Positions 26,637 through 55,215 of a DNA stretch of 64,000 nt are shown one piece after another. Position numbers and translations under genes: made by a program. Origin of the DNA: Pyropia haitanensis (taxonomy: Eukaryota > Rhodophyta > Bangiophyceae > Bangiales > Bangiaceae); the NCBI GenBank assembly GCA_008729055.1, contig SDUX01000007.1:124001-188000 (forward strand). Reading direction: 5' to 3'. The stretch's first letter is position 1. Each line of letters starts with the position of its first letter. The notes under the pieces were generated by a model. That model was not told where the DNA came from. It did no database searches and saw only the letters and a program-made list of their open reading frames with translations.

Positions 26637-26651
26637 TTTATCCTTTTTTTT
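26636..26651 (+). terminator. polymerase III terminator of 5S copy 1
   Basis: A T4 run at 26636-26639 is followed by a back-up T8 run at 26644-26651, directly after the 5S 3' end. The same arrangement follows every other 5S copy (seven Ts in copies 4 and 5). Confidence 0.85.
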
Positions 26652-27058
26652 GTTGTTTTCTCCACCGACAGAAATGGGGACACATGAAGAAGCGGGGGTG
26701 AAAGAGGGGCAGCCGTGAAGAGGCACAAGAGCAGGCCACAAAAAGAAAAAAAATGCACAACACATTCGCTAAAGCCAGTCTACGGCGCTCGAGTGTGAGA
26801 ACAGTAAGGGCACGTGTATTAACGTCAGCCATCGCGATTATTCGCCGAGATCTTTGCCACGTATACACATGATCGCTCGGATGGGTCGGTGGGGCCTAGT
26901 CAACGACGTGAGGGGAGCTAAGCGGGCCGAAATGGGCCTCATTGTCGTCAAATCAGGCAATGAAGTTAGAAATGAACGCGGCGGAAGAAACGCCGGGCAC
27001 GAATGAGCGTGTGCCGACTCGTGACGGATAATCTGGTCGCTGGGCTGGCGGGAGCCAT

Positions 27059-27095
27059 CCCGCGAGCCATACGCTGCGAGTTTGGCTCGCGCGGG
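27059..27095 (+). other. stem-loop in the retrotransposon-like leader of the spacer
   Basis: CCCGCGAGCC (27059-27068) pairs with GGCTCGCG(C)GGG (27084-27095). A second small hairpin (CTCGGAGCCATCCGAG) follows. The same sequence is present in every unit and directly upstream of ORF1 in the full elements, so it is part of the shared 5' leader. Confidence 0.7.
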
Positions 27096-27213
27096 GGCTC
27101 GGAGCCATCCGAGAGCCATACCATCCGAGACGGTTGCTCCCTCTCGCGCTTTTGTGGCGGGGTTCCTCTGCGGGGGGACCCCCCTCACTCTCCTACCGCT
27201 GTTTTCTGGCGCT

Positions 27214-27540
27214 ATGGCTTCGGTTGTGGCGCCGGGGGGCGACGGAGAGGCGCTGGCGCGTGCGATTGTCGCGGTCGTCGTCGCCGTCGCCGTCGACGCG
27301 GCGCTGGTTGAACGAATGGGTTTATTGGATTCTGCTCTGACAGTGATTCGGGCCAATGGGGAGGCGGCATTCGCCTCCCCGGCGGATTCTTGTCACCCTC
27401 CGGCGGTTGTTGCCCCTTCTTCTTCCCCGGCTTCCCCACCCACGCTCGACTCGTCCCCTCCCGCGGCCGCCCCTCCCCCCCATCTGTCATACGTTGCATC
27501 CTTGAATGATCATTTTGGAGGTATGGCTGCACCTTGCTAG
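27214..27540 (+). pseudogene. relic of retrotransposon ORF1 in 5S spacer, unit 1
   Basis: ATG-started frame of 108 residues. The first 93 (MASVVAPGGDGEALARAIVA...) align with the ORF1 start of the full elements (MASAVAPGCGGVALARAIAA...) with scattered substitutions. From 27493 the frame runs into ordinary spacer and stops at TAG. It shows that the spacer holds an old, truncated element 5' end. Confidence 0.85.
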
Positions 27541-27880
27541 ACGCGCCCTATTTTACTATTACGTACGGCGTACCATTTATCATCCAGATCGGTGGTGCTC
27601 ATCATCGAATACCCTTCCGTGTGGACGTGAACAGGGGCACTTGTCACGTACGTCTTCTCATCGGGTTTGCGGTGGCGGCTTTGGGCACTGCTTCCCTGCT
27701 CGACCTTTGCCCGGCTGTATGCACAAGGCGAGGGTGCGTGCGGGGCCGACGCGGCGGGCTGCTCCTACGACGGTAGTTTTGGCTATGACCAGATGCCGAA
27801 AGGCAGTACGGGTGACGTCTACTGTGTCGTCGGCCGGTGGTGGACGTGGGGTTGTATGCAGCATGCGAGCATTTTGTGTC

Positions 27881-28002
27881 ACGTACGGCCATATCTGAGA
27901 CACGTGCACCGGAACCCATTCCGAATTCCGAAGTTAAGCGTCCACGAGCTGGGTTAGTAGTCTGGTGAGGGATCACAGGCGAACCCCCAGTGCTGTACGT
28001 CT
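27881..28002 (+). rRNA. 5S ribosomal RNA, copy 2
   Basis: Identical to copy 1, followed by the same T-run terminator. Confidence 0.95.
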
Positions 28003-28579
28003 TTTATCCTTTTTTTTGTTGTTTTCTCCACCGACAGAAATGGGGACACATGAAGAAGCGGGGGTGAAAGAGGGGCAGCCGTGAAGAGGCACAAGAGCAG
28101 GCCACAAAAAGAAAAAAAATGCACAACACATTCGCTAAAGCCAGTCTACGGCGCTCGAGTGTGAGAACAGTAAGGGCACGTGTATTAACGTCAGCCATCG
28201 CGATTATTCGCCGAGATCTTTGCCACGTATACACATGATCGCTCGGATGGGTCGGTGGGGCCTAGTCAACGACGTGAGGGGAGCTAAGCGGGCCGAAATG
28301 GGCCTCATTGTCGTCAAATCAGGCAATGAAGTTAGAAATGAACGCGGCGGAAGAAACGCCGGGCACGAATGAGCGTGTGCCGACTCGTGACGGATAATCT
28401 GGTCGCTGGGCTGGCGGGAGCCATCCCGCGAGCCATACGCTGCGAGTTTGGCTCGCGCGGGGGCTCGGAGCCATCCGAGAGCCATACCATCCGAGACGGT
28501 TGCTCCCTCTCGCGCTTTTGTGGCGGGGTTCCTCTGCGGGGGGACCCCCCTCACTCTCCTACCGCTGTTTTCTGGCGCT

Positions 28580-28906
28580 ATGGCTTCGGTTGTGGCGCCG
28601 GGGGGCGACGGAGAGGCGCTGGCGCGTGCGATTGTCGCGGTCGTCGTCGCCGTCGCCGTCGACGCGGCGCTGGTTGAACGAATGGGTTTATTGGATTCTG
28701 CTCTGACAGTGATTCGGGCCAATGGGGAGGCGGCATTCGCCTCCCCGGCGGATTCTTGTCACCCTCCGGCGGTTGTTGCCCCTTCTTCTTCCCCGGCTTC
28801 CCCACCCACGCTCGACTCGTCCCCTCCCGCGGCCGCCCCTCCCCCCCATCTGTCATACGTTGCATCCTTGAATGATCATTTTGGAGGTATGGCTGCACCT
28901 TGCTAG
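28580..28906 (+). pseudogene. relic of retrotransposon ORF1 in 5S spacer, unit 2
   Basis: Same 108-residue truncated frame as in unit 1, unchanged. Confidence 0.85.
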
Positions 28907-29246
28907 ACGCGCCCTATTTTACTATTACGTACGGCGTACCATTTATCATCCAGATCGGTGGTGCTCATCATCGAATACCCTTCCGTGTGGACGTGAACAG
29001 GGGCACTTGTCACGTACGTCTTCTCATCGGGTTTGCGGTGGCGGCTTTGGGCACTGCTTCCCTGCTCGACCTTTGCCCGGCTGTATGCACAAGGCGAGGG
29101 TGCGTGCGGGGCCGACGCGGCGGGCTGCTCCTACGACGGTAGTTTTGGCTATGACCAGATGCCGAAAGGCAGTACGGGTGACGTCTACTGTGTCGTCGGC
29201 CGGTGGTGGACGTGGGGTTGTATGCAGCATGCGAGCATTTTGTGTC

Positions 29247-29368
29247 ACGTACGGCCATATCTGAGACACGTGCACCGGAACCCATTCCGAATTCCGAAGT
29301 TAAGCGTCCACGAGCTGGGTTAGTAGTCTGGTGAGGGATCACAGGCGAACCCCCAGTGCTGTACGTCT
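29247..29368 (+). rRNA. 5S ribosomal RNA, copy 3
   Basis: Identical to copy 1, with T-run terminator. Confidence 0.95.
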
Positions 29369-29945
29369 TTTATCCTTTTTTTTGTTGTTTTCTCCACCGA
29401 CAGAAATGGGGACACATGAAGAAGCGGGGGTGAAAGAGGGGCAGCCGTGAAGAGGCACAAGAGCAGGCCACAAAAAGAAAAAAAATGCACAACACATTCG
29501 CTAAAGCCAGTCTACGGCGCTCGAGTGTGAGAACAGTAAGGGCACGTGTATTAACGTCAGCCATCGCGATTATTCGCCGAGATCTTTGCCACGTATACAC
29601 ATGATCGCTCGGATGGGTCGGTGGGGCCTAGTCAACGACGTGAGGGGAGCTAAGCGGGCCGAAATGGGCCTCATTGTCGTCAAATCAGGCAATGAAGTTA
29701 GAAATGAACGCGGCGGAAGAAACGCCGGGCACGAATGAGCGTGTGCCGACTCGTGACGGATAATCTGGTCGCTGGGCTGGCGGGAGCCATCCCGCGAGCC
29801 ATACGCTGCGAGTTTGGCTCGCGCGGGGGCTCGGAGCCATCCGAGAGCCATACCATCCGAGACGGTTGCTCCCTCTCGCGCTTTTGTGGCGGGGTTCCTC
29901 TGCGGGGGGACCCCCCTCACTCTCCTACCGCTGTTTTCTGGCGCT

Positions 29946-30272
29946 ATGGCTTCGGTTGTGGCGCCGGGGGGCGACGGAGAGGCGCTGGCGCGTGCGATTG
30001 TCGCGGTCGTCGTCGCCGTCGCCGTCGACGCGGCGCTGGTTGAACGAATGGGTTTATTGGATTCTGCTCTGACAGTGATTCGGGCCAATGGGGAGGCGGC
30101 ATTCGCCTCCCCGGCGGATTCTTGTCACCCTCCGGCGGTTGTTGCCCCTTCTTCTTCCCCGGCTTCCCCACCCACGCTCGACTCGTCCCCTCCCGCGGCC
30201 GCCCCTCCCCCCCATCTGTCATACGTTGCATCCTTGAATGATCATTTTGGAGGTATGGCTGCACCTTGCTAG
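29946..30272 (+). pseudogene. relic of retrotransposon ORF1 in 5S spacer, unit 3
   Basis: Same truncated ORF1 relic as in unit 1. Confidence 0.85.
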
Positions 30273-30612
30273 ACGCGCCCTATTTTACTATTACGTACGG
30301 CGTACCATTTATCATCCAGATCGGTGGTGCTCATCATCGAATACCCTTCCGTGTGGACGTGAACAGGGGCACTTGTCACGTACGTCTTCTCATCGGGTTT
30401 GCGGTGGCGGCTTTGGGCACTGCTTCCCTGCTCGACCTTTGCCCGGCTGTATGCACAAGGCGAGGGTGCGTGCGGGGCCGACGCGGCGGGCTGCTCCTAC
30501 GACGGTAGTTTTGGCTATGACCAGATGCCGAAAGGCAGTACGGGTGACGTCTACTGTGTCGTCGGCCGGTGGTGGACGTGGGGTTGTATGCAGCATGCGA
30601 GCATTTTGTGTC

Positions 30613-30734
30613 ACGTACGGCCATATCTGAGACACGTGCACCGGAACCCATTCCGAATTCCGAAGTTAAGCGTCCACGAGCTGGGTTAGTAGTCTGGTGA
30701 GGGATCACAGGCGAACCCCCAGTGCTGTACGTCT
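30613..30734 (+). rRNA. 5S ribosomal RNA, copy 4
   Basis: Identical coding sequence to copy 1; its second terminator T-run is one base shorter. Confidence 0.95.
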
Positions 30735-31309
30735 TTTATCCTTTTTTTGTTGTTTTCTCCACCGACAGAAATGGGGACACATGAAGAAGCGGGGGTGAAA
30801 GAGGGGCAGCCGTGAAGAGGCACAAGAGCAGGCCACAAAAAGAAAAAAAATGCACAACACATTCGCTAAAGCCAGTCTACGGCGCTCGAGTGTGAGAACA
30901 GTAAGGGCACGTGTATTAACGTCAGCCATCGCGATTATTCGCCGAGATCTTTGCCACGTATACACATGATCGCTCGGATGGGTCGGTGGGGCCTAGTCAA
31001 CGACGTGAGGGGAGCTAAGCGGGCCGAAATGGGCCTCATTGTCGTCAAATCAGGCAATGAAGTTAGAAATGAACGCGGCGGAAGAAACGCCGGGCACGAA
31101 TGAGCGTGTGCCGACTCGTGACGGATAATCTGGTCGCTGGGCTGGCGGGAGCCATCCCGCGAGCCATACGCTGCGAGTTTGGCTCGCGCGGGGGCTCGGA
31201 GCCATCCGAGAGCCATACCATCCGAGACGGTTGCTCCCTCTCGCGCTTTTGTGGCGGGGTTCCTCTGCGGGGGGACCCCCTCACTCTCCTACCGCTGTTT
31301 TCTGGCGCT

Positions 31310-31636
31310 ATGGCTTCGGTTGTGGCGCCGGGGGGCGACGGAGAGGCGCTGGCGCGTGCGATTGTCGCGGTCGTCGTCGCCGTCGCCGTCGACGCGGCGC
31401 TGGTTGAACGAATGGGTTTATTGGATTCTGCTCTGACAGTGATTCGGGCCAATGGGGAGGCGGCATTCGCCTCCCCGGCGGATTCTTGTCACCCTCCGGC
31501 GGTTGTTGCCCCTTCTTCTTCCCCGGCTTCCCCACCCACGCTCGACTCGTCCCCTCCCGCGGCCGCCCCTCCCCCCCATCTGTCATACGTTGCATCCTTG
31601 AATGATCATTTTGGAGGTATGGCTGCACCTTGCTAG
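31310..31636 (+). pseudogene. relic of retrotransposon ORF1 in 5S spacer, unit 4
   Basis: Same relic as unit 1. A one-base loss in the C run upstream opens the leader into the same frame (from 31100), which does not change the relic itself. Confidence 0.85.
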
Positions 31637-31976
31637 ACGCGCCCTATTTTACTATTACGTACGGCGTACCATTTATCATCCAGATCGGTGGTGCTCATCA
31701 TCGAATACCCTTCCGTGTGGACGTGAACAGGGGCACTTGTCACGTACGTCTTCTCATCGGGTTTGCGGTGGCGGCTTTGGGCACTGCTTCCCTGCTCGAC
31801 CTTTGCCCGGCTGTATGCACAAGGCGAGGGTGCGTGCGGGGCCGACGCGGCGGGCTGCTCCTACGACGGTAGTTTTGGCTATGACCAGATGCCGAAAGGC
31901 AGTACGGGTGACGTCTACTGTGTCGTCGGCCGGTGGTGGACGTGGGGTTGTATGCAGCATGCGAGCATTTTGTGTC

Positions 31977-32098
31977 ACGTACGGCCATATCTGAGACACG
32001 TGCACCGGAACCCATTCCGAATTCCGAAGTTAAGCGTCCACGAGCTGGGTTAGTAGTCTGGTGAGGGATCACAGGCGAACCCCCAGTGCTGTACGTCT
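31977..32098 (+). rRNA. 5S ribosomal RNA, copy 5 (upstream of retrotransposon copy 1)
   Basis: Complete and identical to copy 1. Its spacer is normal up to 32643 and then continues as retrotransposon sequence instead of the relic. Confidence 0.95.
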
Positions 32099-32693
32099 TT
32101 TATCCTTTTTTTGTTGTTTTCTCCACCGACAGAAATGGGGACACATGAAGAAGCGGGGGTGAAAGAGGGGCAGCCGTGAAGAGGCACAAGAGCAGGCCAC
32201 AAAAAGAAAAAAAATGCACAACACATTCGCTAAAGCCAGTCTACGGCGCTCGAGTGTGAGAACAGTAAGGGCACGTGTATTAACGTCAGCCATCGCGATT
32301 ATTCGCCGAGATCTTTGCCACGTATACACATGATCGCTCGGATGGGTCGGTGGGGCCTAGTCAACGACGTGAGGGGAGCTAAGCGGGCCGAAATGGGCCT
32401 CATTGTCGTCAAATCAGGCAATGAAGTTAGAAATGAACGCGGCGGAAGAAACGCCGGGCACGAATGAGCGTGTGCCGACTCGTGACGGATAATCTGGTCG
32501 CTGGGCTGGCGGGAGCCATCCCGCGAGCCATACGCTGCGAGTTTGGCTCGCGCGGGGGCTCGGAGCCATCCGAGAGCCATACCATCCGAGACGGTTGCTC
32601 CCTCTCGCGCTTTTGTGGCGGGGTTCCTCTGCGGGGGGACCCCGTGACACCGGGGCCCCCCTTCTTGTTCGTACCCTTTTTTTTTCCGGCGCT

Positions 32694-35209
32694 ATGGCTT
32701 CGGCCGTAGCGCCGGGGTGCGGCGGAGTGGCGCTGGCGCGCGCGATTGCCGCGGTCGTCGTCGCCGTCGCCGCCGATGCGGCGCCAGTTGAGCGAATGAG
32801 TTTGTTGGATTCGGCCCTTACAGTGATTCGGGCCAATGGGGAGGCGGCATTCGCCTCCCCGGCGGATTCTTGTCTCCCTCCGACGCTTGTTGCCCCTTCT
32901 TCGTCCCCGGCTTCCCCACCCACCATCGACTCGTCTCCTCCCGCGGCCGCCCCTTCCTCCCCTCCGGGCGCGATCCTTACCCCGACGGCCGTTCCGGCCG
33001 CGGGGGCTACTTCCTCCGCCTTCCCCGCCCCCGCGGACGCCGCGATGGACACGAGGGGCGCGTTCATCCTCGTTGAGCGCCGTCGCCGCGGCGGTGCCCG
33101 CCGCCGTCCCCCCCCCCTTGCTGATGCCGCGGCGGGGGAGCGCCGTGCCTCGGCGGCGACTGACGTCGGGGACGTCGCGGCGGCCACGGGCAGCTACGCG
33201 GCGGCTGCGGCCAAGCCTGCTGCTGGCGCGGCGGCCGGTCACCACGCGCCTGACCGCGACGCCGGCGGCGTGCCGGGTGGCCGTCCTGCTGACCACGGCG
33301 AGCTTCCCTCTTCCTCCCCCGCCGTCGCTGGCGCGGACGCGGCGGCGGCGAAGCTGAGGGCGGCCGCAGTCGCGCGTCTGCGCGCCTTGGCGCGCGACTC
33401 GCGCGGCCTGCCCGCGCTGAAGACTGTCTATCTGCGCGGGGTGCCACGCGAGGCGCGCGCCAAGGACCTGCGCGTCCTCCTGGCGCAGGTGACGGGCACC
33501 CCTCCGCGGGCCATCGTCGACGTCGACCGTTTTGGTGCGTTGGCGGCGGTGACGCTGGAGGCGGGGGCGACGGTTGCTTTTGTGGCGGCCGTCCGTGCCC
33601 CCGCGGCGGCCGAGTTCTTCTCGGTCGCCGAGGGGTTCGATCCACTGTCCCGCGACGCGCTCGGCGCCCGCCGCCGTCGCGCCCTGGGCGCCGCAGCGGG
33701 GGACAAGACGGCGGCGGACTTCTTTGTCCGCCGCCTCACAACCAAGCTGGCCCAGCTGGACGTGCGGCGCCAGCTGCCGGCGCGCCTGCGCGACGCTCTG
33801 CGTCGGCACGTGCATCAGCAGCTGGCGCCGCACGTCGCGACGCTGGGGGCTGCCGCCGCGACGTCTGTGCCAGCAGCTGACGCGCCTCCCTCCGCTGTTG
33901 GCGAAAGCGTGGCCGCCGCTGCAACCGCCCCGGGCGCCGCCACAACGGCCGGCCCGGACCTGGCAGCCCCGGCCGGCCCTGCGTGCCGCTCCCCCGCGCA
34001 AGGCGTCCCGGCCGCGAGGCCTGCCGTGGCGGGGTCTTTGGTGGTGCCGGTCGCGCCGGCGGCAACGGAAGTGGCGGCATGCCCGGCCGGAGAGCTCACT
34101 CCGGCCGGGGGTGCAGGCACGGGCGCTGTTGCCGCGCGCCCGCCACGGGTTTGGCGCCGCGCCCGCCCAGCTGGCCGCACCCGGCCCCCCCCCACGGCTG
34201 CCGACGGCGGTGGTGTGGCCGCGGACCGAAGCGCTGTCCAGCGCAGCGGGCGCGCTGCGACGGGCGCCGTAACGTCGGCGGCGGGCGGGGAGGGGTGCCG
34301 TCCGTCCGAGGCCGCGGGCCCCGCCCCGACCGGGGGAGCAACCGCCACCTGCCCGGCCAGCGCGACCAACCCCCCCCCCACCCATCTTTTTGACGCACAT
34401 GGCGTGCGCCGCCCGAAGCCGTCACCCCTGCCGCCCTCCTCTCGCGGGGACGGCCCCCCCCCTGGCCCTCCGCCGCCTGCGGCTGCGCGGCTGGGGCCGG
34501 TCGGCGGCGGGGCAGCGACTTCTGCAGCGGGCCACGGCGAGGCCACGGACGCGGCCAGCGCGGCAACCGCAGGCGCCGCGGGCACCCCCGCCGCCAACCG
34601 CTCTGACCGCGCCGACGGCGGAGGGGGGGAGCTCCTGGAGGAGGAGGAGCTGACCCCTGCTCCGCCGGCCTCCACGGCCACCCCACTCGCGCCCCCACTC
34701 CGTCCCCCTCCCGCCCGGGTCTGTCCGTGGCCGCAGCCGCAGTCGATGCGCGCCGGGCGAAGCGCGGCCGTAGCCACCTCCGGGCGGCCGCGCGTCGCAG
34801 CGCCGACGCCGCCGCGGCCCGCCGGCTCGACGTGGCCGCCTGCTGTGCACTGGCCGCGGCGGCGGTTCCGCTTCCGCGACCGGAGCCAGGCGCGGCCGCT
34901 TGCGCGGATGCGCCGGCGGGCGGCACGGGCGGCGGGGGGGACGCGATGGACATCGTCGGCCCCGCGGCCGTCCCGGAGCCTGCCCCGCCGCCGCCCCTGT
35001 CGGACCCGGTGCCTCGGTCGCCGGGCGGGGAGCGGACGCCCAAGGCGACCCGCACGCCCGCCCGGACGGAGGCCCCGCGCCGGCGGAGCACGGCGCCGCC
35101 GCCGCCGCGGTTCGAAGCGGCGGCCGCCGCGGAGATGTCCGTGCCGGCAGCGTCGCCGACGCCCCTCGGGGCCGCCCCCTGCGCTAGCGACGTCGTGCAC
35201 AATGAGTGA
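32694..35209 (+). CDS. retrotransposon ORF1 (copy 1), one frameshift
   Basis: ATG at 32694. Ala/Pro-rich, about 838 residues allowing for one lost C near 34690 (the third copy has one more C there). N-terminal hydrophobic Ala/Val helix; RRM-like stretch about residues 244-300 (LKTVYLRGVPREARAKDLRV, then IVDVDRFGALAAVTLEAG); helical segment RLTTKLAQLDVRRQLPAR; long disordered Ala/Pro/Gly region; C-terminus ending DVVHNE. ORF1 proteins of non-LTR elements usually bind element RNA; RNA binding here is an inference from the RRM-like part. Because of the missing C, the 5' frame continues into ORF2's frame, giving a 1902-codon fused open frame. Confidence 0.7.
33424..33594 (+). other. RRM-like segment of ORF1
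   Basis: TVYLRGVP resembles RNP2 (beta1), followed by an Ala/Lys-rich helix, VDVDRFGALAAVTLE (beta2-beta3-like) and a second helix. It is conserved in copy 3 at about 58010-58190. Fold assignment is tentative. Confidence 0.4.
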
Positions 35210-38200
35210 CAACGCCGGTCACGCGGGCGCGGCACCGAGGGGAGCCGCCGGCCTGCCTTACGCGGCGCCCCTCCCCGCCACTCCTCTCTCGCCACCGACG
35301 GCGGCGCGGACATCGTCCCCCCAGCCCCACCTAGCTCAGCGTGGACGCACGTCACCTCCGGGGCGGCGGATTTCGCCCTCCCCTTCTTCCCCCCCCACCC
35401 CAGGCGAGGTGGCGTCTTCTTCTTCCCCGGTCAGATCTTCCACCCCCGTTGTGGCCACCCTTGCCACTGCCGACGTGGTCGGAGGGGGTGGGCCATTTTC
35501 TGTTTGCCCGGTGCCCGGATGTGGACACCGGGCGGCGAGTGCCGCGGGGGGCCGGCCCGCCCTGGCTCACTTGCGCTCGTCGCACACCGCAGGGGAGGTT
35601 CCCGCAGCGGCTATGACGGCGCTGCGCCTGCGCCCCTGTCCGCACTGCGACCGCCCCTTTTTGGCGTGGAAGCGTGGCAAGGGGCCGACCTCGTGGTCGG
35701 CCCACGCGGTGCAGTGCCCGGTGCGGCGGCGGCGGCTGGCCGAAGCCGCGCCGATGACTGGGCGCAGCGGAAGCGTCTTCCCCCCCCCCTGCGCCCCGCC
35801 GACAGCCAAGGGCAAGCCACCGCCTGGCGCCTCCCCTCCCCACACCCCTGACCTCCTCGCCGCCGACCCCGGGGCGTGGCGACGCGCGATGAGCGCCTTT
35901 TTAGCCGCCGCCCTCCCGGATGGCGCGGACTGGGCGCCGATGGTGGCGTCGGGCGCTCGGACGTGCGCGCACGTCCCAACCGCCCTCCTCCCCGTGTGGC
36001 GGCGTTTGGGCGCGGAAGCGCTGGAATGGGTGGGCCAGCAGCCGTACAACGCCCAAGCATGGCAATGGCTGCTGACCCTCCCGTCTCTGCTGCTGCACGA
36101 GCCGGCCGCCGCCCGTGGGGCCCGGCCAGGCTACACCCCACTGTCGCGGGAGGCGCGGGCGGCTGCCCTGCTGGGCGGGGATTTTGCTGCCGCGTTGGCC
36201 GACCGGAACGGCGGAGTGTGGCGGGAGGACCCGCCGGATGCGGCACGGGCCCCGCCCCCTGCAGCCCCCCTCACCCACACTCCCACAGGCGCCGCGGCTA
36301 CAGGCGCCAGGCGCGGCGGCCAGCGGCGCGCAGCGGTTGCCGCCGCGGGCGGGCTCGGCGCCCGCCGGGGGGAGGCGGCGCGCAACTCCCGCCCGCTGAC
36401 GCGCGCGCAGCGCCGGGCTCTGCGGCAGGTTCGGGCGGGGCGACTGACTGCCGCTGTCCGGTCGCTAGTGGGGGCAGACCCTGCGCCTCGCACGTCGGCG
36501 GTGTGGGCCAAGGCGCAGAGCCTCTTCCCCGCCGCGGCCACGGGTTCGTGCTCCTCCGCCTCTGTCGAGGCGGAGTTTGCCGAAGAGCTTGAGGAGCTCG
36601 AGATTGCGGCCTCGTGGGCTGAGCCCTACGAGGGCGAGGCCGTCCCTGCGGCGGCCGTCGAGGCCGCCATTCGGTCTGCACCGCGCGGCTCCGCGCCGGG
36701 GCCGTCTGGGCTGCGGGCCGAGCACCTTTGGGCGCTCGGCCCTGGCGGCCACGCCGCCCTGGTGAGGGTGGTGCGGTGGCTGACGGGGGAGGCGGCGGCG
36801 GCGCTCCCCCCGGCTGCGGCACAGGCGCTTGCCGGGGCGGAGCTTCTCCTGCTCCGCAAGCCAGGGCCGCCGGACGCCGCCGGCATCCCACCTCTCCGCC
36901 CGATAGGAATGCCGGAGGCGCTGCGCAAGCTCGCCGCCGCCGCCCTGTCCCGCCACGTGCGCACGGCGGCGGCTAGATTCTTCCGCCCACTGCAGGTCGG
37001 CCTCGGCGTCAGCAGCGCCTGCGAGCGCTTGCTGCACGGCCTAGAGGCCCACCTGGCGCAACACCCCTCTCACGGGGTGCTGCAGCTGGACTTCAGGAAC
37101 GCCTTCAACCTGGTCGGGCGGGCGGCGGCGGTGGCGGTTCTGACACGCGCGTTTCCCGCCCTCATCCCGTACGTCACGTGGACGTACAGGGGCCGCCCGC
37201 CCCCAGTCTACGGGTGGGCGGCCGGCGGCGACGGCGCCTCGCCCCCCCCTCCCCCCCCGCCTCCACCTACCGGCTCGCCCACGGCGGAGGCGCTACTCCA
37301 AGAGCTCCCCACACGCCTTCGCCTGTGGGTCGAGCGTGGCACGCAGCAGGGCGACCCGCTGGGGCCGCTGCTCCACGCCGCAGCACTGCACTTGGTGCTG
37401 CTGCGGCTGGAGACACGGTTTCCCGAGCTGCTCGTTTGGGCCTACCACGACGACGTCGTCGTGGTGGGCCCCGTCGAGCAGCTCGGGGTCGCGCTTTCCG
37501 CAGCGGGCGAGGTCGGCCGCGCCGTGGACGCGGAGCTGGCGCCGGCCAAGTGCCGCGCCTGGTCGCCCACGGCGCGGCCACCGCCTGCTGATCTCGCCAC
37601 GCAGTGGCGCGCGGAGGGGATCGAGCAGTTTTCCACCCCCCTAGGCGGCCCGGACTTTGTCGACCGCGCGGTGGCCGCGGCGGTGCGCCGGCAGGAGGCG
37701 GTGGTGGCGGCCGTCACCGCTCTCCCAGACGAGGAGCTGCAGGCCCAGCTCCTCCTGCTGCGCCTCTGCGCGGGCCCGGGCACTACCTACGCCCTCCGCG
37801 CCTTTCCGCCCGACGCCGGCGCGGCAGTCGCCGCTGCCTCTGACCGGCTGTCGGCGGCCGCCCTGGCGTCGCTGGTGGAGGAGGCGCACGACGGACCGGC
37901 GGAACGCGCTGCGCTGCTGGAGCGCGCGGCGCTGCCGGTGGCCCTGGGCGGCCTCGGCCTGTGTGACCGGCGCCGGGTGGCGCCTGCGGCGGCGCTAGCG
38001 TCTTGGGTCGACGCCATCCGCGATGGCGAGGCGCACTCGCCAGCGCTGCGCGCCCTCGGCGCCGCCGTGACCGGCGCACCGGAGCCGAGCGCGGCGGAGG
38101 CGCGCGCGGCGGCGGAGGCTCGGACGGCCGCCGCGGACCACCCTCCCTACTGCGACAGCCAACGGTGGTGGGGGGGGGCCGGGCCGAGGCACGCGAGGCG

Positions 38201-41200
38201 CGCGGAGCTTCACTGGCCGCGTCGGCGCCGGGCGGTGTTGGCGCCGGTCGTGTGGACGTCGCAGCGGACGCGAGCGCGTGGGCAGCACTGGTGGGCCGCC
38301 TAGACGCCCTCGCCCTCGCCCACGCGGATCCGCTGCGGGCGGCCACGTGTGCGGGGCACGTGGCCGCGGAGGCGCCCGCGGCGGGGCATCCACCGCAATC
38401 GGCGCGTCCCGCTCCCGCACAAATATTGCGGGCGGCGGGCGCCTCGCCCGCGCGATCGCCGGCCGCGAGGCCGATCCCCCCCTCGGACGATCTCCCCACG
38501 GGGGGCCGGGGCGCGGTGAAACCGCCACCTCCCCCCACCCCCTCCGGGGGGGCAGCGGTTGGCGGCGACCCGCCGCCGGCGGTTACGAATTCGCCGCCGC
38601 CGCCGTCGGCGGTGGCAGATTCGCCGCCGCCGCCGCCGCCGGCGGTGGTAAATTCCCCGCCGCCGCCGCCGGCCGGTTTTGTTTCGCCGCCGCCGCCGGC
38701 CGTTTGTGTCTCGCCGCCGCCGCCGCCGCCGGCGGCCGCGGCGAATTCGCCGTCGTCCGCCCGGCGGCTCGCTGCACACGTGCGGCGTGGTGCGGTTTCG
38801 GCTTCGCCCCTGCTCCCGGCCGCGGGGGCGGCGGCGGTTTGGCCGACCTCGCCGCCGGCACCGTCTGGCCAGCCCGCACCGCGGCTTTGGCTGCGGCCAC
38901 GGCGCCGGCGTGCGGCGGACGAGGGCACCGCCCGCTCGGCAGCAACCCCCGCTTTTTTGTCGTTGGGGTGGCCCGGCGGGGGCGGTGGCGGCGGGGCGGA
39001 TGGCGCGCTGCCACCCCCGCGGTCGGTGGACCCGCCGGCTGTGGCGGCCGCCACCGGCGCCTCCCGCGGTTGCCACGATGGCGCCGGCGCGGCGCCGCTG
39101 GCGGCCACACTTGCGGCTGGTCCGCTGGCCGGGGGAGTCGGAGCGGGCGAGGGGCCACCTCCCCCTGTCGTCGCCACGGCCAAGGCCGGCTGCCGCGAGC
39201 GGCGGCAGGACGGTGGCGCCGCGGACGGCGCGGCGGCGAGGCCCGGCGGCAAGTGCGGCACGGCCGTCGCGGCTGGCTGCGCGGGCGGTGCGGTGGCGGC
39301 AGCGGACTGCGCGGCCGCGGTGTCGGTGGTGGTACTGCCGGTGGCGTCGGCGTCCGCGGACGGCGCCGGGACGGCAGCGGGCGTCGGCGACGCGACGGTG
39401 GAGGGCGGCGGCGACCTGGCGACCGTGGCGGCGGCGGCTGGGTTGGGCGTCGGCGCGGGGGTGGTCACGGCGACGGGTGGGCGCGGGGCGCCAGGGAGGG
39501 TGGACCGCCGCGCGCTGGCTGCGCCGGCCGCGACGGCGACGGCGGGGGAGCCTGGCGGGGGCTGGGGCAGTGGCGGGGGCGGCAGGGTCCCACGGGATGG
39601 AGGGGGGCGATCCCCCTCCGTCGGCCCCCGTGCCTCCGCCCGGCCGACTCCTGCCGCTGCCCCGGCCGCCGGCACGGGGGCGACGCCGGGCTGCGGCGGG
39701 GCGCTGGCGGACGCTGCCGCTGACGAGGCACCGGCGGCGGCGCGGACGGCGGGGGGGACGACGGGCGGCGCCGGCGCGGCAAGGCTGGCGAGGGGCGGCG
39801 ACGCGGTGGCGGCGACGACTGCGGACGGGCCCGGCGTTGACGGAAGCGCAACGGCGGCGACGGGTGGACGTGTGGCGCTGGAGGGGTCGGACGGCTGCGC
39901 CCCGGCCGCGCCGGTGACGGCGATGGGGGTTGGTGGGGCTGGCGCGGCCGCTGGCGGTGGCGGGTGCGGCAGGGGCGTGTCTGATGGGGGGGGCCGATAC
40001 CCCTCCCGCGGCGCCCCCGCTGCCGACCGGCCAGCCCCCGCGCCACGCCCCCCCCAGCGGGCGGCCTGGTGCCACGGCCGCCCCGGCGAGGGGGGGGGGT
40101 GCTTGTCGCGGCGGGCGCGGGGTCGCCGGACTGGTGCCCGGCGGGGGGGTGCGATTCCCCCTGGCGGCCCCGCCGGCTGTGGTGGCGGATTCGCCGCCGC
40201 CGCTGTCGGCGGGGGCAGATTTTTCGCCGCCGCTGCCGGCGAGGGCGAATTCGCCGCAGGTGCCCCCGACCGGATTCGTTCCGCCACCGCCGCCGCCGAT
40301 GGTGGCGGCGGCGATTTCGCCATCGTTCGCCCGCCGCCCCGCCGCCCGCCGGCGGCAGGGTGCGTTGATTGCCTCGCCCCCGCCCACGGCCACGGGCGCG
40401 GGGGCGGTGGGGTCCACCGCGCCGCCGGCGGCGTCTGCCGTGTTCGCGCCGCGGCTGCTGTCGCGGCCACGGCGCCGGCGCGCAGGCGGCGGGAGCGCCG
40501 CCCGTACGGCGGCGATACCCGCCTTTTTGTTGGGTGGGGGGCCGAGCGGTGGCGTTGGCGGCGGGGCGCGTGGCACGCCGCCGCCCCCGCGGCTGGTGGA
40601 CCCGCCGGCGGCGGCCGCCGCGACCGGCACAGCAAGCGCCACCGAGGCCGGTGGGCCGGCCCGGCGGGCTGGCGGGTGCAGGCGGCTGCCGCCCCCCGCC
40701 GACTCCACGGTCGCGGCCGGCGGCCACGCGCGGGGGCGCCACGGCGGCGCAGCGGACGGCGCGGCGGCGGCGCCCTACGAGGCGGCACGGCAGCGGAGGC
40801 CGGCCGCGCGGCCGATGCGGGGGGGGCAGTCGACTGCGGCGGCCCCGCGCCGGCGGGGGTGCTGGCGTTCGCTTCGGCGGCCGCGGACGGCGCCGCGACG
40901 GCGGACGGCGGCGGCGACGTGACGACCGCGGCGGCGGCAGATGGGCTTGGCGTTGGCGCGGGGGCGGGGGCGGCGACGGGCGGGCGCGGGCCGCCGGGGA
41001 GAGGGGACCGCTGCGCGCTTGACGCGCCGGCCGCGACGACGACGGCGGGGGAGTCTGGAGTGGGCCGGGGCAGTGGCGAGGGCGGCGAGGTCCAACGTGA
41101 TGGAGGGGGGCGATCCCCCTCCGTCGGCCCCCACGCCTCCGCCCCGCCGACCCCCGCCACTGCCCCAGCCGTCGGCATGGCGGCGACGCCGGGCTGCGGC

Positions 41201-43477
41201 GGGGCGCTGGCGGAGGCTGCCGACGACGCGGCGTCGGCGGCGGTGTGGACGGCGGCGGTGAGCGCGGCCGGCGCCGGCGTGGCAGGGCTGGCGAGGGGCG
41301 GCGACGCGGCGGCGGCGACGACTGCGGACGGGCCCGGCGTCGGCGCAGGCGCGGCGGTGGCGACGGGAGGACGTGCGGTGCTGGGGGGGGCGGACGGCGG
41401 CGCGCCGACCGCGCCGGAGACGGCGGGCTGGGTGGGCGCGGCGGGAGGTGGTGGCGGGCGTGGACGGGGGCTACATGGCGGGGTTGAGCGCAGCCGCGTT
41501 GCCTGCGCCCCCGCTGCCGTCCTGCCTGCTCCCGCGCCACGCCCCTCCGCGGCTGGCGACACGGCCGCCTTTTTGGGCAGCGGCAACGCGCTGGCTTGGG
41601 GTGGCGGCGCTGCGTCTGCTGTGCTGCTGGCTGAGGCGGCGGCGGACGACGACGGCGCGGCGTTGGCGGCGGACGGCGCCGGCACGCCGTCGGCGCCGAG
41701 CGCGGTTGGGCGTGGCGTCCGCGGTGGGGTGTTGGCGGCGTCGGGCAGCCGTGGGGCTGCCGGCCGCAGCGCGGCTGACGCGCCGGTTCGGGCGGTGCTG
41801 GCCGGCGCAGGGCGGCAGGCCGCGGCGGGGCGTGCTTGCGGGGCGCCGGGCAGGGGCGGTGGTTGCGCAGGTGGACTGCTGGGAGGGGGCAGTCCGCACC
41901 CTTCTGGCGGCCCTCCTGCTGCGGCCACCGTCCGCTGGCTCACCCCTGGCGCTGGGACGCCGGGAGGTGGCCGGCTGTCGGGCGCCCCGCACCCGACTTG
42001 CGAGGCGCCCGTGCCAGCCGCCTCGATGGCGTGGCCGAGCGGCAGAGTCGGCCACGGTAGCGGCGGCGGTGCGGCCGCATCGCCGGCCGCTGCCTGGGAG
42101 GGCGCCGGCGCTGCGCCGCTCATCGCCACCATGGGGTGGGCGGATGCCGTGCGGCTGCACCTGCCGCTCGCCTCTCCGACGGAGGCCGCCACGACCAACG
42201 ACGACGGCGTCAGAGGGCCCGCCGCCGCGGCCGCGGCCAGCCCCTGCCGGCCGGCGACGCCCTCGCCGCCGGTCTGGACGGCACCCAACACTGGGTCGCC
42301 GGGGTGGTCCACGCGGCCGGGGCGGCCGCGCTCGCCGTCCGGCCGCCGTTTGATTGCGGCCGAGCCGCCGTCCAGCCGCGGCCCCCCGGCGCCGATACCC
42401 CTCGGAGTACCCCGCCGCGCCCCAAGCGCGGCGCCGGCCGCCGGTGTCGCCCCGCCGGGCTGCCCGCCAGTCTCCGCCTCACCTCCTGTGGTTCCCATCG
42501 ACACCACGGCCCCTGGCCTACACTGGCCCATGGGAGATGACAGAGCGGCGGCCACGGCGGCCTGGCAGCGGTGGCTGAGAGGTAACGCGCCGACGGCGCA
42601 GCGAGACCTGGCGCGGCCTGCCGCGCTGGCGGCGCAGACGCGGCTGTGGCGGCGGGCTTCCCTCGCCGGGCGGGCGCGCATGGCGGCATGTGAGGGGGGC
42701 GGCGCGGGTCTGTTTCTGGGCGCCCTCCCCACCAGCGGCCGGGCTGGCACCCGCATCGGCGGGGATGAGATGCGGGCGGCCGTGCGGATGTGGTTGGGCG
42801 TTGCGGCGCGGCCGTCGGCTCGCCCTCTGCGCTGTCGCTGCGGCGCAGTGGTGCGCGCCGACGGCGCCCACTTTCTCGGAGAATGTTCCGAGCAAGTAGG
42901 CGACCGGACGCGGCGCCATCACGCCATCTCTCACCTCGTTGCCGACGCGCTGCGCGCGTCCGGACGGTGGGCGGCCGTCGAGCTGGAGCTCCGGCTGGGC
43001 GAGGAGCGCCAGGGCTCCCTCCGCCCGGACCTGTGCGCAACGCGCGCGGGGTCGGGCGTGCGCGTGTGGGGGGACGTTTCCGTCGTGTCCCCCCTGCGGG
43101 AGGTGGTACTGTCGAGGGTGGTCGCCAACCCTCGACAGGCTGCCGCCGCCGCCTGGCGGGAGGGGATGAAGGCGGCCAAGTACGGCGCTCATCTTCCTCC
43201 CGCCGACCCGCCATCCACCTTCACGCCCCTCGTGTGGGAGGCGTATGGTCGGGTGGGGCCGGCAACGGCAGAGTTCCTGGCGGCGGCGCTGGGGGGGCCG
43301 ACGGGCGGCCCGGCGCATGCGACGCTGCTGCGACGCGTGAGCGTCGCGCTGTGGCGTGCCAACGCTCGGGCGGCCTTGACCGGCGTGCGCAACAGCACGC
43401 CCACCGCGGAGTCGGGCGACATGGCTACCACGGCCGCCGCGAGCGGCCACAACTTGCTTGCGATAATTAGCGAATAG
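35202..43477 (+). CDS. retrotransposon ORF2 (copy 1): zinc fingers, reverse transcriptase, giant linker, restriction-like endonuclease; one frameshift
   Basis: ATG at 35202 overlaps the ORF1 stop in ATGAGTGA. About 2758 residues if one G is restored in the run near 38170 (nine Gs here, ten in copies 2 and 3). Domains: C2H2 finger (Cys 102, VCPVPGCGHRAA ... HLRSSH); CPHC...H...C finger (from residue 146); reverse transcriptase with motif A LQLDFRNAFNLV (Asp 630), motif B GTQQGDPLGPLL (about 713) and motif C AYHDDVVVVG (Asp 750, 751); thumb to about 990; Ala/Pro/Gly-rich linker about 1060-2440; RAGTRIGGDEMRAAVRMWLG; C-terminal endonuclease with CxCx9Hx4C (RCRCGAVV...AHFLGEC, from ~2544), RRHHAI and catalytic-type RPDLCA...VWGDVSV; then RRVSVALWRANARAAL, typical of the end of this RT group. 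The polymerase copies element RNA at a nicked 5S target. Confidence 0.85.
38540..41480 (+). repeat. internal tandem duplication (~1.5 kb x 2) within ORF2 linker
   Basis: Anchors recur about 1500-1600 bp apart: GTGGACCCGCCGG at 39026 and 40596, CGACGCCGGGCTGCGGCGGG at 39681 and 41183, CTGGCGAGGGGCGGCGACGC at 39785 and 41288, and the GATTCGCCGCCGCCG block at about 38590 and 40187. The copies have diverged by substitutions and small in-frame indels. Element copy 2 has the same duplication. Confidence 0.8.
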
Positions 43478-43536
43478 GGGGTAGTAGCCCCCCTGGGGGT
43501 GGTCTGAGGAGTTCGTTCCTAGCAGAGAGTAAAACG
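43478..43536 (+). other. retrotransposon 3' UTR, copy 1
   Basis: 59 nt from the ORF2 stop to the 5S junction. It can form GGGG...CCCC and AGGA...TCCT hairpins and ends AGAGAGTAAAACG. Copy 2 (55157-55215) is also 59 nt and keeps the AGGA/TCCT stem with a changed loop. This is probably the RNA recognised by the reverse transcriptase for target priming. Confidence 0.65.
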
Positions 43537-43642
43537 GAGACACGTGCACCGGAACCCATTCCGAATTCCGAAGTTAAGCGTCCACGAGCTGGGTTAGTAG
43601 TCTGGTGAGGGATCACAGGCGAACCCCCAGTGCTGTACGTCT
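43537..43642 (+). rRNA. 5S rRNA gene interrupted by retrotransposon copy 1 (nt 17 onward)
   Basis: Starts at GAGACACGTGCACC, lacking the first 16 nt of 5S. The internal promoter and terminator are intact, but helix I cannot form with the 3' end, so no normal 5S is expected. Confidence 0.9.
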
Positions 43643-44219
43643 TTTATCCTTTTTTTTGTTGTTTTCTCCACCGACAGAAATGGGGACACATGAAGAAGCG
43701 GGGGTGAAAGAGGGGCAGCCGTGAAGAGGCACAAGAGCAGGCCACAAAAAGAAAAAAAATGCACAACACATTCGCTAAAGCCAGTCTACGGCGCTCGAGT
43801 GTGAGAACAGTAAGGGCACGTGTATTAACGTCAGCCATCGCGATTATTCGCCGAGATCTTTGCCACGTATACACATGATCGCTCGGATGGGTCGGTGGGG
43901 CCTAGTCAACGACGTGAGGGGAGCTAAGCGGGCCGAAATGGGCCTCATTGTCGTCAAATCAGGCAATGAAGTTAGAAATGAACGCGGCGGAAGAAACGCC
44001 GGGCACGAATGAGCGTGTGCCGACTCGTGACGGATAATCTGGTCGCTGGGCTGGCGGGAGCCATCCCGCGAGCCATACGCTGCGAGTTTGGCTCGCGCGG
44101 GGGCTCGGAGCCATCCGAGAGCCATACCATCCGAGACGGTTGCTCCCTCTCGCGCTTTTGTGGCGGGGTTCCTCTGCGGGGGGACCCCCCTCACTCTCCT
44201 ACCGCTGTTTTCTGGCGCT

Positions 44220-44886: not shown

Positions 44887-45008
44887 ACGTACGGCCATAT
44901 CTGAGACACGTGCACCGGAACCCATTCCGAATTCCGAAGTTAAGCGTCCACGAGCTGGGTTAGTAGTCTGGTGAGGGATCACAGGCGAACCCCCAGTGCT
45001 GTACGTCT
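44887..45008 (+). rRNA. 5S ribosomal RNA, copy 6 (intact)
   Basis: Identical to copy 1, with T-run terminator. Confidence 0.95.
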
Positions 45009-45585
45009 TTTATCCTTTTTTTTGTTGTTTTCTCCACCGACAGAAATGGGGACACATGAAGAAGCGGGGGTGAAAGAGGGGCAGCCGTGAAGAGGCACAA
45101 GAGCAGGCCACAAAAAGAAAAAAAATGCACAACACATTCGCTAAAGCCAGTCTACGGCGCTCGAGTGTGAGAACAGTAAGGGCACGTGTATTAACGTCAG
45201 CCATCGCGATTATTCGCCGAGATCTTTGCCACGTATACACATGATCGCTCGGATGGGTCGGTGGGGCCTAGTCAACGACGTGAGGGGAGCTAAGCGGGCC
45301 GAAATGGGCCTCATTGTCGTCAAATCAGGCAATGAAGTTAGAAATGAACGCGGCGGAAGAAACGCCGGGCACGAATGAGCGTGTGCCGACTCGTGACGGA
45401 TAATCTGGTCGCTGGGCTGGCGGGAGCCATCCCGCGAGCCATACGCTGCGAGTTTGGCTCGCGCGGGGGCTCGGAGCCATCCGAGAGCCATACCATCCGA
45501 GACGGTTGCTCCCTCTCGCGCTTTTGTGGCGGGGTTCCTCTGCGGGGGGACCCCCCTCACTCTCCTACCGCTGTTTTCTGGCGCT

Positions 45586-45808
45586 ATGGCTTCGGTTGTG
45601 GCGCCGGGGGGCGACGGAGAGGCGCTGGCGCGTGCGATTGTCGCGGTCGTCGTCGCCGTCGCCGTCGACGCGGCGCTGGTTGAACGAATGGGTTTATTGG
45701 ATTCTGCTCTGACAGTGATTCGGGCCAATGGGGAGGCGGCATTCGCCTCCCCGGCGGATTCTTGTCACCCTCCGGCGGTTGTTGCCCTTCTTCTTCCCCG
45801 GCTTCCCC
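45586..45808 (+). pseudogene. ORF1 relic, truncated at junction with element copy 2
   Basis: Normal relic sequence with one C missing near 45787, then an abrupt change after GGCTTCCCC to sequence of the ORF2 linker. Confidence 0.75.
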
Positions 45809-48800
45809 GCCCCGCTGCGACGCGGCCCAGCCCCGCCCAACGCCCCCTCCAGCGGGCGGACCTAGGTGCCACGGCCGCCCCGGCGAGGGGGGGGGTGCTG
45901 TCGCAGGCGGCGCGCGGGGTCGCTCGGAGCTGGTGCCCGGGCGCGGTGGGGGCGATTCCCCTGCGCCTCTCCTGCTGTGGTGCGTGATCGCACGCGCGCC
46001 GTTCGTCGGCGGGGGCAGAATTTCGCCGCTCGCTGCCGGTCGAGGGCGTAATTCGCGCGTCAGGTGCCGCCGGATTCGTTCCGCACTCGCGCCCGCGATG
46101 GTGGCGGTCGGGTTTCGCCATCTGCCTGCACCCTGCGCACCCGTCGTCCGCGGCAGTGGTGCGTTTGATTGCCCTGCCCCCGCCCATCGCCGAGGGCGCG
46201 GGGCGGTGGTCCACCGCGCCGTCCGGCGGCTGTCTGTCTCGTGTTCGCGCCGCGGCTGCTTCGCGCTCACGGCGGCCGGCGTCGTGCAGGACGGCGGGAG
46301 CGGGCCGTCCGTAGTCTGCTGGCGATTATTCTCCGCCTTTTTTGTTTCGTGGTGGGGGGCCGAGCGGTGGCGTTTGGCGGTGGGGCGCGTGCAACGGGCG
46401 CGCCGCCCCGCGGTGCTGGTGGAACCCGCCGCGGCGGCCGCCGCGACCGCAACAGCAAAGCGCCACCGCGGCCAGGTGGGCCGGCCCGGCGGGTGGCGGT
46501 GGCAGGCGCTGCCGCCCCCGCCGACTCCACGGTCGCGGCCGGCGGCCGCGCGCGGGGCGCAAGCGGCCGCAGCGGAGGCGCGGCGGCGGCGCCCTACGAG
46601 GGCGCCACGGCAGCGGAGGCCGGCCGCGCGGCCGATGCGGGGGGGGCAGCTCGACGCGGCGGCCCCGTGCCGGCGGGGGTCTGGCGTCCTTCGGCGGCCG
46701 CGGACGGCGCCGCGACGGGCGGACGCGGCGGCGACGTGACGACCGCGGCGGCGGCGCAGAATGGGCTGCGTCGGCGCGGGGGCGGGGGCGGCAACGGGCG
46801 GCGGGGCCACGGGAGGGGGGACCGCTGCAGCGCTGAACGCGACGGCCGCGACGACGACGGGTCAGGCGGGTAGTCTGGAGTGGGCCGGGGCAGTGCGAGG
46901 GCGGCGGAGTCCAACGTGATGGGGGGGGGGATCCCCCTCCGTCGGCCCCCGCCTCCGCCCCGCCTACCCGCGCCACTGCCCAGCCGCCGGCACTGGCGGC
47001 GGACGCCGGGCTGCGGCGGGGCGCATGGCGGAGGTGCGACGACCGCGCGTCGGCGGCGGTGTGGACGGCGGCAGGTGAGGCGGCCAGAGCGCGCCGGGTG
47101 CGCAGGGCTGGCGAGGGGCGGCGAGCGGCGGCGGCGAAACGACTGCGGACGGGCCCCGGCGTCGGCGCAGGCCGCGGCGGTGGCGACGGGAGGACGTGCG
47201 GTGCTGGGGGGGGCGGACGGGCGGCGCGCCGACGCGCCGAGCCGGAGACGGCGGCTGGGTGGGCGCGGCGGGAAGGTGGTGGCGGGCGTGGACGGGGCTA
47301 CATGGCGGGGTTGAGCGCAGCCGTTGGCCTGCGCGCCCCGCCTGCGTCTGCCTGCTCCCACGCGCGCACGCCCCTCCGCGGCTGGCGACACGGCCGCCTT
47401 TTTGGGCAGCGGCAACGCTGGCTCGGGTGGCCGCGCTGCGTCTGCTGTGCTGCTGGCTGAGGCGGCGGCGGACGACGACGGCGCGGCGTTGGCGGCGGAC
47501 GGCACCGGCACGCCGTTCGGCGCGAGCGCGTTGGGCGTGGCGCTCCGCGGTGGGGTGTTGGCGGCGGTCGGGAGCCGTAGGGCTGCCGCCGCAGCGCGGC
47601 TGACGCGGCGGTTCGGGCAGGTGCTGGCCGGCGCAGGGCGGCAAGGCCGGGCGGGGCGTGCTTGCGGGGCCGCGGCAGGGGCGTGTTGCGCAGGTGGAAC
47701 TGCTTGGGAGGGGCAGTCCGCACCCTTCTGGCGGCCCTTCCTGCTGCGGCCACCGTCGCGCTGGCATCACCCCTGCGCTGGGGACGCCCGGGAGGTGGCC
47801 GGGCTGTCGGGCGCCCGACCGACTTGCGAGCGCGCCCGTGCCAGCCGCTCGTGGCGTGGCCGGCGGCAGAGTCGGCCACGGTAAGCGGCGGCGGTGCGGC
47901 CGCATTCGCCGGCCGCTGCCTGGGAGGCGCGCCGGCGCTGGCGCCGCTCATGCCACCCGACCCCCCCATGGGGTGGGCGGATGGCCGTGCGGCTGCACCT
48001 GCCGCCGCCTCTCCGACGGAGGGCCGCCCACGAACCAACGACGACGGCGTCAGCGGCGGCCGCCGCCGCGGCCGCGGTCCAGCCCCTGCCGGCCGGCGAC
48101 GCCCTCGCCGCCGGTCCGGACGCGCACCCAACACTGGGTCGCAGGGGTGGTTTCACCGCGGCCGCGGGGCGGCCGCCGCTTCGCCGTCCGGCGCCGTTTT
48201 GATTGCGGCCGAGCGGCCGTCCAGCCGCGCCCCCTCGCGCCGGATACCCCTCGGAGTACACCCGCCGCGCCCCAAGCGCGCGCCGGCCGCCGGTGTCGCC
48301 CGCCGGGCTTGCCCGCGCAGTCTCCGCCTCACCTCCTGTGGTTCCCATCAACCACGGCCCCTGGCCTACACATGCCATGGGAGATGACAGAGCGGCGGCC
48401 ACGGCGGCGTGGCAGCGGTGGCTAGGGTAACGCGCCGACGGCGCAGCGAGACCTGGCGCAGCCTGCCGGCGCTGGCGGCGCAGACGCGGCTGTGGCGGCG
48501 GGCTTCCCTCGCCGGGCGGTGCGCGCATGGCGGCATTTGAGGGGGGCGGCGCGGGTCTGTTTCTGGGCCCCTGCCACCAGCGGCCGGGCTGTGCACCACC
48601 GCATCGGCGGGGATGAGATGCGGGCGGCCGTGCGGATTGTGGTTGGCGTATGGCGGCCGGCGTTCGGCTCGCGCCCTCTGCGCTGTCGCTGCGGCCGCAG
48701 TGGTGCGCGCCGATCGGCGCCCACCTTTCTCGAGAATGTTCCGAGCAAGTGGCGAACCGGACGCGGCGCCATCACGCCGCATCTCTCACCTCGTTGCCGG

Positions 48801-49195
48801 GACGGCGCTGCGCGCGTCCGGAAGGAGTGGGCGGCACGTCGAGCTGGAGCTCCGGCTGGGCGAGGAGACGCCAGGGCTTCCCTCCGCCCGGACCTGTGCG
48901 CGAACGCGCGCGGGGTCGGGCGTGCGCGTGGGTGGGGGACGTTTCCGGTTCGTGTCCGCCCTGGCGGGAAGGTGTGCTGTCGGGGTGGTCGCCCAACCCT
49001 CGACAGGCTGCGCCGCGCCTGGACGGGAAGGCGGATTGAAGGCGGCCAAAGTACGGCGCGCTCAATCTTCCCCCGCGCCGACCGCCATCCCACCTTCACG
49101 CTGCCCCTCAGTGTGGGACGGCGTATGGTCGGTTGTGGGGCGCGGCGACGGCAGAGTTCCTGGCGGCGGGCGGCTGGGGGGGCCGGACGGGCGGC
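45809..49195 (+). pseudogene. indel-riddled ORF2 linker and endonuclease segment
   Basis: Aligns to 40015-43315 of copy 1 but with a one-base insertion or deletion every ~20-30 bases, insertions predominating and substitutions few. An example is the endonuclease region near 48740-49000, where extra bases break every frame. No open frame survives. The error type points to uncorrected long-read sequence rather than ordinary decay. Confidence 0.8.
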
Positions 49196-55156: not shown

Positions 55157-55215
55157 GGGGTAGTAGCCCCCCTGCGGGTGGTCTGAGGAATCCGTTCCTA
55201 GCAGAGAGTAAAACG
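55157..55215 (+). other. retrotransposon 3' UTR, copy 2
   Basis: 59 nt, same end (AGAGAGTAAAACG) as copy 1. Substitutions fall mainly in hairpin loops. Confidence 0.65.

Follow-up and report, generated by a model that had tools for sequence, protein, structure and literature searches.

A restriction-like-endonuclease retrotransposon joined to 5S rRNA genes in Pyropia haitanensis, with relatives at tRNA genes

Site-specific retrotransposons are thought to occupy multicopy genes because every hit costs the host one gene. In the red alga Pyropia haitanensis, a 5S rRNA array carries long elements whose 3' ends join 5S genes cut back at their 5' end, and intact 5S genes stand upstream. What kind of element is this, where does it sit, and how could its target remain intact? 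The locus lies on contig C9 (SDUX01000007.1, assembly GCA_008729055.1); the window is the whole stretch analysed, 64,000 nucleotides of this contig. A first-pass annotation described an R2-type retrotransposon inserted at one exact site inside 5S genes.

Element copies and their coding capacity

Nine 5S genes were identified in the window with Rfam. Seven score 85.5 bits; replacement of the first 16 nt lowers the score to 57.3 bits for the two at 43522 and 55201. The plain 5S repeat unit is 1366 bp long, and element E1 has a length of approximately 10.9 kb (Table 1). The extent originally given for E1, 32644..43656, had to be moved at both ends: positions 43537-43656 are 5S plus the first spacer bases and lie outside the element, which ends at 43536, and a start near 32607 (unit position 632) is suggested by a T-run and GC-rich hairpin resembling the starts of the tRNA-family elements described below. 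The middle ~3.4 kb of copy E2 is about 88–89% identical and represents a diverged subfamily; from its sequence, E2 looks like a deletion chimera in which a fragment of that subfamily is fused to an E1-like 3' part.

Table 1. Features of the 5S array in the window
Feature	Position	Strand	Remarks
Four plain 5S repeat units	26515..31976	+	1366 bp each, last 1364; head fragment at unit ~632-970
Intact 5S upstream of E1	31977..32097	+	Rfam 85.5 bits; sequence as plain 5S
E1, full-length 5S-family RLE retrotransposon	32607..43536	+	5' edge placed by resemblance, 3' end exact
E1 open frame from ATG: N-terminal region, zinc-finger-like motifs, reverse transcriptase	32694..38303	+	
E1 second open frame: low-complexity linker, then CCHC, PD..D endonuclease	37967..43477	+	
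5S cut back to nt 17-120, at E1 3' end	43537..43641	+	
Intact 5S upstream of chimeric copy E2	44887..45007	+	Rfam
Copy E2	45518..55215	+	Plain-unit-type head, ~3.4 kb diverged subfamily, E1-like 3' part
5S cut back to nt 17-120, at E2 3' end	55216..55320	+	
Intact 5S upstream of copy E3	56566..56686	+	Rfam
Copy E3	57197..64000	+	Extends beyond window; 3' end C9:192101 (window-scale 68101), joins 5S nt 17

The window also contains a BMS1/Tsr1-type ribosome biogenesis gene (1878-6332), a piece of a DDE_Tnp_1_7 transposase (15647-16480) and an ERGIC/ERV-thioredoxin fusion gene (18899-20428). A neighbouring gene has its best named matches in Agarophyton, Porphyra, Pyropia and Chondrus, and light-harvesting genes are also present.

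All of the protein motifs listed in the first-pass annotation were located in E1: zinc-finger-like motifs at 35505-35717, reverse transcriptase (RT) motifs A/B/C at 37083-37457, a CCHC motif at 42833-42886 and RPD..D at 43022-43075. The RT domain matches Pfam RVT_1 (E 4.4e-8), the sole Pfam domain found in the element; no APE domain was detected by Pfam. The linker of E1 contains two ~1.5 kb repeats that are about 75% alike. The modelled endonuclease matches R2 structures far above anything else. In a profile of RT relatives, R2 was the best match, and the top solved relatives included R2 and LINE-1. Searches of solved structures with one sequence at a time gave weak results, P0001 reaching R2 at E 0.003 and P0002 reaching nothing at E up to 1. 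The element has a non-LTR reverse transcriptase and, after the CCHC motif, a C-terminal restriction-like endonuclease (RLE), as do members of the wide RLE group (R2, NeSL, CRE, HERO).

In E1, RT and endonuclease occupy different, overlapping frames, and none of the six full-length copies in this assembly has an unbroken frame from start to endonuclease. Copy E5 spans RT motif B to the endonuclease in one 2285-aa frame, E4 spans the zinc fingers to RT in one 2566-aa frame, and the relative P0002 has RT and endonuclease within a single ORF. Programmed frameshifting between RT and endonuclease was considered. The position of the break differs between copies, so that decay or misassembly in GC runs is just as likely a cause. 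A conserved 3'-UTR hairpin was also considered and is not counted as evidence; the fold z-scores were -0.55, -1.28 and -2.43, with the 5S and Asp families not clearly better than shuffled sequences.

The 3' junction in 5S and the heads in the spacer

Both 3' junctions reported at the outset, 43536/43537 and 55215/55216, are present, and in each the 5S gene resumes at nt 17. The sequence at both low-scoring 5S genes reads ...AGAGAGTAAAACG/GAGACACG..., where the slash marks the joint and the 5S part begins with nt 17. The last 400 bp of the element were used as a query against the genome (52.9 Mb, 136 contigs; 18 of 18 candidates scored), giving at least 18 matches. Seven reach the 3' terminus, and every one of these runs into 5S nt 17, on contigs C9 and C86; all seven termini found join 5S instead of the 28S rDNA site of R2. 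The remaining 11 matches lack a 5S-family 3' end and comprise one diverged fragment and ten relatives with 68–77% DNA identity across part of the endonuclease stretch; several of these ten weaker matches led to relatives with 3' ends at tRNA genes. That an RLE element is joined to 5S between nt 16 and 17 is, in our judgement, nearly certain. Copies at unrelated sites had been named at first as a refuting condition, and the outcome is mixed. Outside the 5S array (C9 and C86) no close copies (97–99.7%) came to light, but the relatives include families joined to tRNA-Asp and tRNA-Leu genes, and there are also one dispersed endonuclease relative and one relic with a 5S fragment (L022).

A dispersed relative of the endonuclease was observed at G000:C9:1526628-1527209 (74% over 196 aa, within an 872-aa open frame). 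Its last ~60 aa are unmatched, and the 301 bp beyond contain no match to 5S or the element 3' end; it is possibly a fragment or a reused gene.

The claim of one exact site inside 5S holds for the 3' end but not for the head, which lies in the spacer ~510 bp past a 5S gene. In an alignment of heads, plain and element-bearing units were practically identical through 5S and ~510 bp into the spacer, and they begin to diverge near unit position 650, at a GC-rich hairpin. At least seven A-type heads were found, with 40 of 43 candidates scored. An intact 5S gene and ~510 bp of spacer precede five of them; the other two come after the truncated 5S (nt 17-120) at the end of the preceding element. By exact match, 165 kb (114 kb of C9 and 51 kb of C86) contain 34 intact 5S starts and seven truncated ones, and in the same 165 kb 5S nt 1-16 are never followed by anything except nt 17. 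Simple interruption of 5S at one site was rejected as a full account, since no 5' junction in 5S was found and the heads seen are all in spacer. Matches to an HDV-like ribozyme at the element 5' end were at chance level and had no Rfam support.

The plain units themselves carry a diverged copy of the head at unit position ~632-970 (~340 bp), in which the start codon falls at unit position 700; at least 33 such fragments were listed on C9 and C86. Compared with E1, 23 of 85 homologous codons differ (11 silent, 12 not). The fragment can be recognised as element sequence within the spacer because its N-terminus is recognisably common to the tRNA families. In the simplest history, the founder unit of the array would be the deletion remnant of an older insertion. 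The homogenised spacer masks the exact 5' junction in 5S.

Two further 5S loci were observed. At L022:6747-6990 (C9:2688747), a relic consists of 5S nt 1-63, ~40 nt, and a related head that ends after ~140 bp; this separate locus supports the link to 5S, yet it leaves no intact gene. A second 5S array, L020 (C7:3709501-3719500), has 1074-bp units and a 5S sequence about 87% identical to that of the window; no element was found in these 10 kb, and several bases differ around the 16/17 site.

Relatives at tRNA genes and position in the RT tree

A genome search with the RT core returned 76 matches, with a single locus often represented by several pieces. The relatives share about 47–55% amino-acid identity, with up to 71% across one short RT stretch. 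In the tRNA-Asp family, the element end joins the tRNA from nt 8 onward (7/8; placed by visual comparison with five plain tRNA-Asp genes), and in the tRNA-Leu family it joins at about nt 14/15. The 3' flank at C6:2759294 (L033) contained no piece of tRNA-Asp or tRNA-Leu by eye.

The tRNA-Leu probe gave at least 21 matches (21 of 21 scored), consisting of 13 internal, three array ends, one array start and four plain. By query coverage, the 13 internal matches run through element end, tRNA, flank and next head; eight (L046-L053) were read, and at L049 the next head breaks off early. The three array ends have another flank, identical in all three, and may represent one locus. The tRNA-Asp probe gave 15 matches: six with an element 3' end, two array starts, one fragment before another head, and six plain genes that lie far apart in the genome. 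Plain matches were read for three of four tRNA-Leu genes (all but C4) and five of six tRNA-Asp genes (all but C8). At each of the three array starts, L054 (tRNA-Leu), L062 and L063 (tRNA-Asp), a complete tRNA is followed by a T-run and then an element head; the tRNA was identified by ARAGORN for L054, and completeness was judged by eye for L062 and L063.

The tRNA-Asp genes L058-L063 and L069 have a variable T-loop insert of about 10-15 nt, and L063 has a second insert in the D-loop. ARAGORN detected none of the insert-bearing genes L058-L062. We take these inserts to resemble the ectopic introns that have been described in red-algal tRNAs. In the tRNA-Asp array on C3, T-loop insert and flank are of one kind in the first gene and the internal fragments and of another kind in the last fragment; the three units of this array are 99.4–99.9% alike over the parts compared. 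The flank that follows tRNA-Leu is the same on the C6 and C9 copies and different at the array end, and on that basis it belongs to the mobile unit.

An RT tree was built from 68 of the 81 domains offered; 13 were excluded because the RT piece was shorter than 200 aa or unscored (P0033-P0037, P0040, P0047, P0066, P0067, P0069, P0072, P0073 and P0075). The 5S, Asp and Leu families and 31 database relatives form a 34-row clade with support of 100/100, and three animal R2 sequences form a separate 100/100 group, in a tree with an arbitrary midpoint root, long branches and only these three R2. Membership of the R2 clade was rejected, given this separation from the animal R2 and a target other than 28S. 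The R2-type label can be kept in its wide sense, for an RLE non-LTR retrotransposon of the broader R2 kind, but not for an element that groups with the three animal R2 or sits at 28S. The sole named protein among the close matches is from Pyropia vietnamensis (P0036, one of those left out of the tree), and the entire RT clade is probably red-algal. The suggestion of a new family fits the open-access literature, in which no identical published family turned up (Repbase was outside the search). Among its titles and abstract openings there was no RLE element at 5S, with Repbase and most subscription papers out of reach.

How an intact target could come to stand upstream

We propose a 5S-targeted RLE non-LTR retrotransposon that is one of several related families at Pol III genes in this red alga. 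In R2, reverse transcription is primed at the nick. By analogy, the protein would nick 5S between nt 16 and 17 on its antisense strand and prime reverse transcription there. As the tRNA families suggest, the transcript may begin upstream of the element and include the 3' part of the target gene, and homology with this carried part could then join the cDNA at its 5' end to the upstream target. After each insertion the element would stand between an intact target gene upstream and a copy lacking its 5' part downstream, and the upstream gene would be open to repeat insertion, so that elements stack head to tail. We consider the whole chain, including the donor-carried step, to be roughly an even bet.

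For 5S alone, duplication, deletion and donor-carried models end in the same sequence. The second strand might instead be cut downstream of the gene, so that the rest of the gene is duplicated locally as a target-site duplication with no donor-carried sequence. This has the same predicted outcome, an intact gene upstream and stacking, and would produce the 5S arrangement seen; it would need about 615 bp to be duplicated at 5S, which speaks against it, and only about 60–70 bp in the tRNA families. The flank after the tRNA would then be the element's own 5' end, which suits tRNA-Leu, although that flank fits donor-carried and local-duplication models equally. The L022 relic, with 5S nt 1-63 followed by a head, would fit a duplication of nt 17-63; it counts against our proposed mechanism, with head-like sequence ~40 nt after 5S nt 63 and a gene that is not intact. 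What makes local duplication rather doubtful is the C3 array, where the T-loop insert of the upstream gene is not that of the downstream fragment at the array's end, a difference inside the gene. Local duplication predicts matching inserts, and we therefore prefer a donor-carried 3' gene part; a single tRNA-Asp array supplies the evidence that favours this step over a local duplication, and its pattern might also reflect gene conversion.

An intact gene could also be the neighbouring unit, if an upstream top-strand cut or recombination removed the 5' fragment of the interrupted gene. Such a deletion predicts exactly the tandem-5S structure found, and it was argued for U2 arrays by Kojima and Jurka (PMC4640811). 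Plain tRNA-Asp genes are far apart, however, making a ready neighbour unlikely, and yet the C3 and C120 arrays start with a complete tRNA-Asp (L062 and L063); on balance we consider deletion unlikely. Since every 5S copy sits either in one array or on contig C86, which may be the same locus, independent insertion into 5S is not proven: one old insertion multiplied by unequal crossing-over would yield the same seven junctions, which would then be uninformative about target specificity. This is compatible with the other models and with the homogenised spacers and the 99.7% likeness of E5 and F2, and the likeness of the C3 tRNA-Asp units permits the same doubt there. We nevertheless regard it as improbable: divergence among the copies reaches 3%, whereas the flanking spacer hardly varies; the head position is the same in a second subfamily, represented by the plain-unit heads and the interior of E2; sister families sit at fixed bases of two tRNA genes; and the separate L022 relic has a related head.

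If the donor-carried mechanism is correct, an element that spares its target gene would escape the host cost and could use low-copy tRNA genes, which would explain the persistence of such elements in small gene families and bear on the puzzle of intact U2 genes upstream of Utopia. A broader, still tentative possibility is a red-algal RLE clade specialised on Pol III genes (5S, tRNA-Asp, tRNA-Leu and, given the 31 other RT relatives in the clade, perhaps many more), whose mobile RNA carries the 3' part of the target and rebuilds an intact gene upstream, so that insertion neither kills the gene nor uses up the site and elements stack; the same scheme might explain the intact U2 of Utopia in oomycetes. 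The clade offers related R2-like proteins at different, exactly defined targets and is useful for the study of site recognition.

Among known systems, R2 of animal 28S rDNA is alike in providing the best solved relatives of the RT and endonuclease profile, in the modelled endonuclease fold, in the order of CCHC and PD..D, in zinc-finger-like motifs before the RT and in an exact 3' junction within an rRNA gene. The P. haitanensis element differs in targeting 5S, in an RT from another strongly supported clade, in its ~10.9 kb with a long low-complexity linker, and in a 5' end that lies beyond the gene and in most cases follows an intact copy of the target. The zebrafish non-LTR element Mutsu, of the Tx1 group, has an APE-type rather than a restriction-like endonuclease, whereas the endonuclease here is an RLE by modelled fold and motif. 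Mutsu shares the 5S target, inserting in 5S rRNA genes, and is described as having two ORFs and ~5.5 kb (PMC3706591, PMC11202950). Other mobile elements associated with 5S genes are Dada-5S DNA transposons (DDE transposase), Jockey-type LINEs of Tribolium and the LTR element Cassandra; in the available portions of the sources, none is described as an RLE retrotransposon.

NeSL-clade elements target tRNA-Pro, tRNA-Arg and tRNA-Glu genes, and Utopia targets U2 (PMC4640811). Spliced leader genes are also among the targets of the NeSL and Utopia elements. They share with the P. haitanensis families the habit of an RLE at small-RNA genes, here 5S, tRNA-Asp and tRNA-Leu, which is not proof of kinship; the target genes are different, and oomycete Utopia carry RNase H, whereas only RVT_1 was found here by Pfam. 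Utopia-1_NVit occurs occasionally in tandem, and in Phytophthora, intact U2 genes, not fragments of U2 nt 1-38, lie upstream of Utopia and truncated U2 lies downstream, an arrangement ascribed there to deletion, with recombination allowed for (PMC4640811). Phytophthora Utopia at U2 is the closest precedent for the arrangement found in P. haitanensis.
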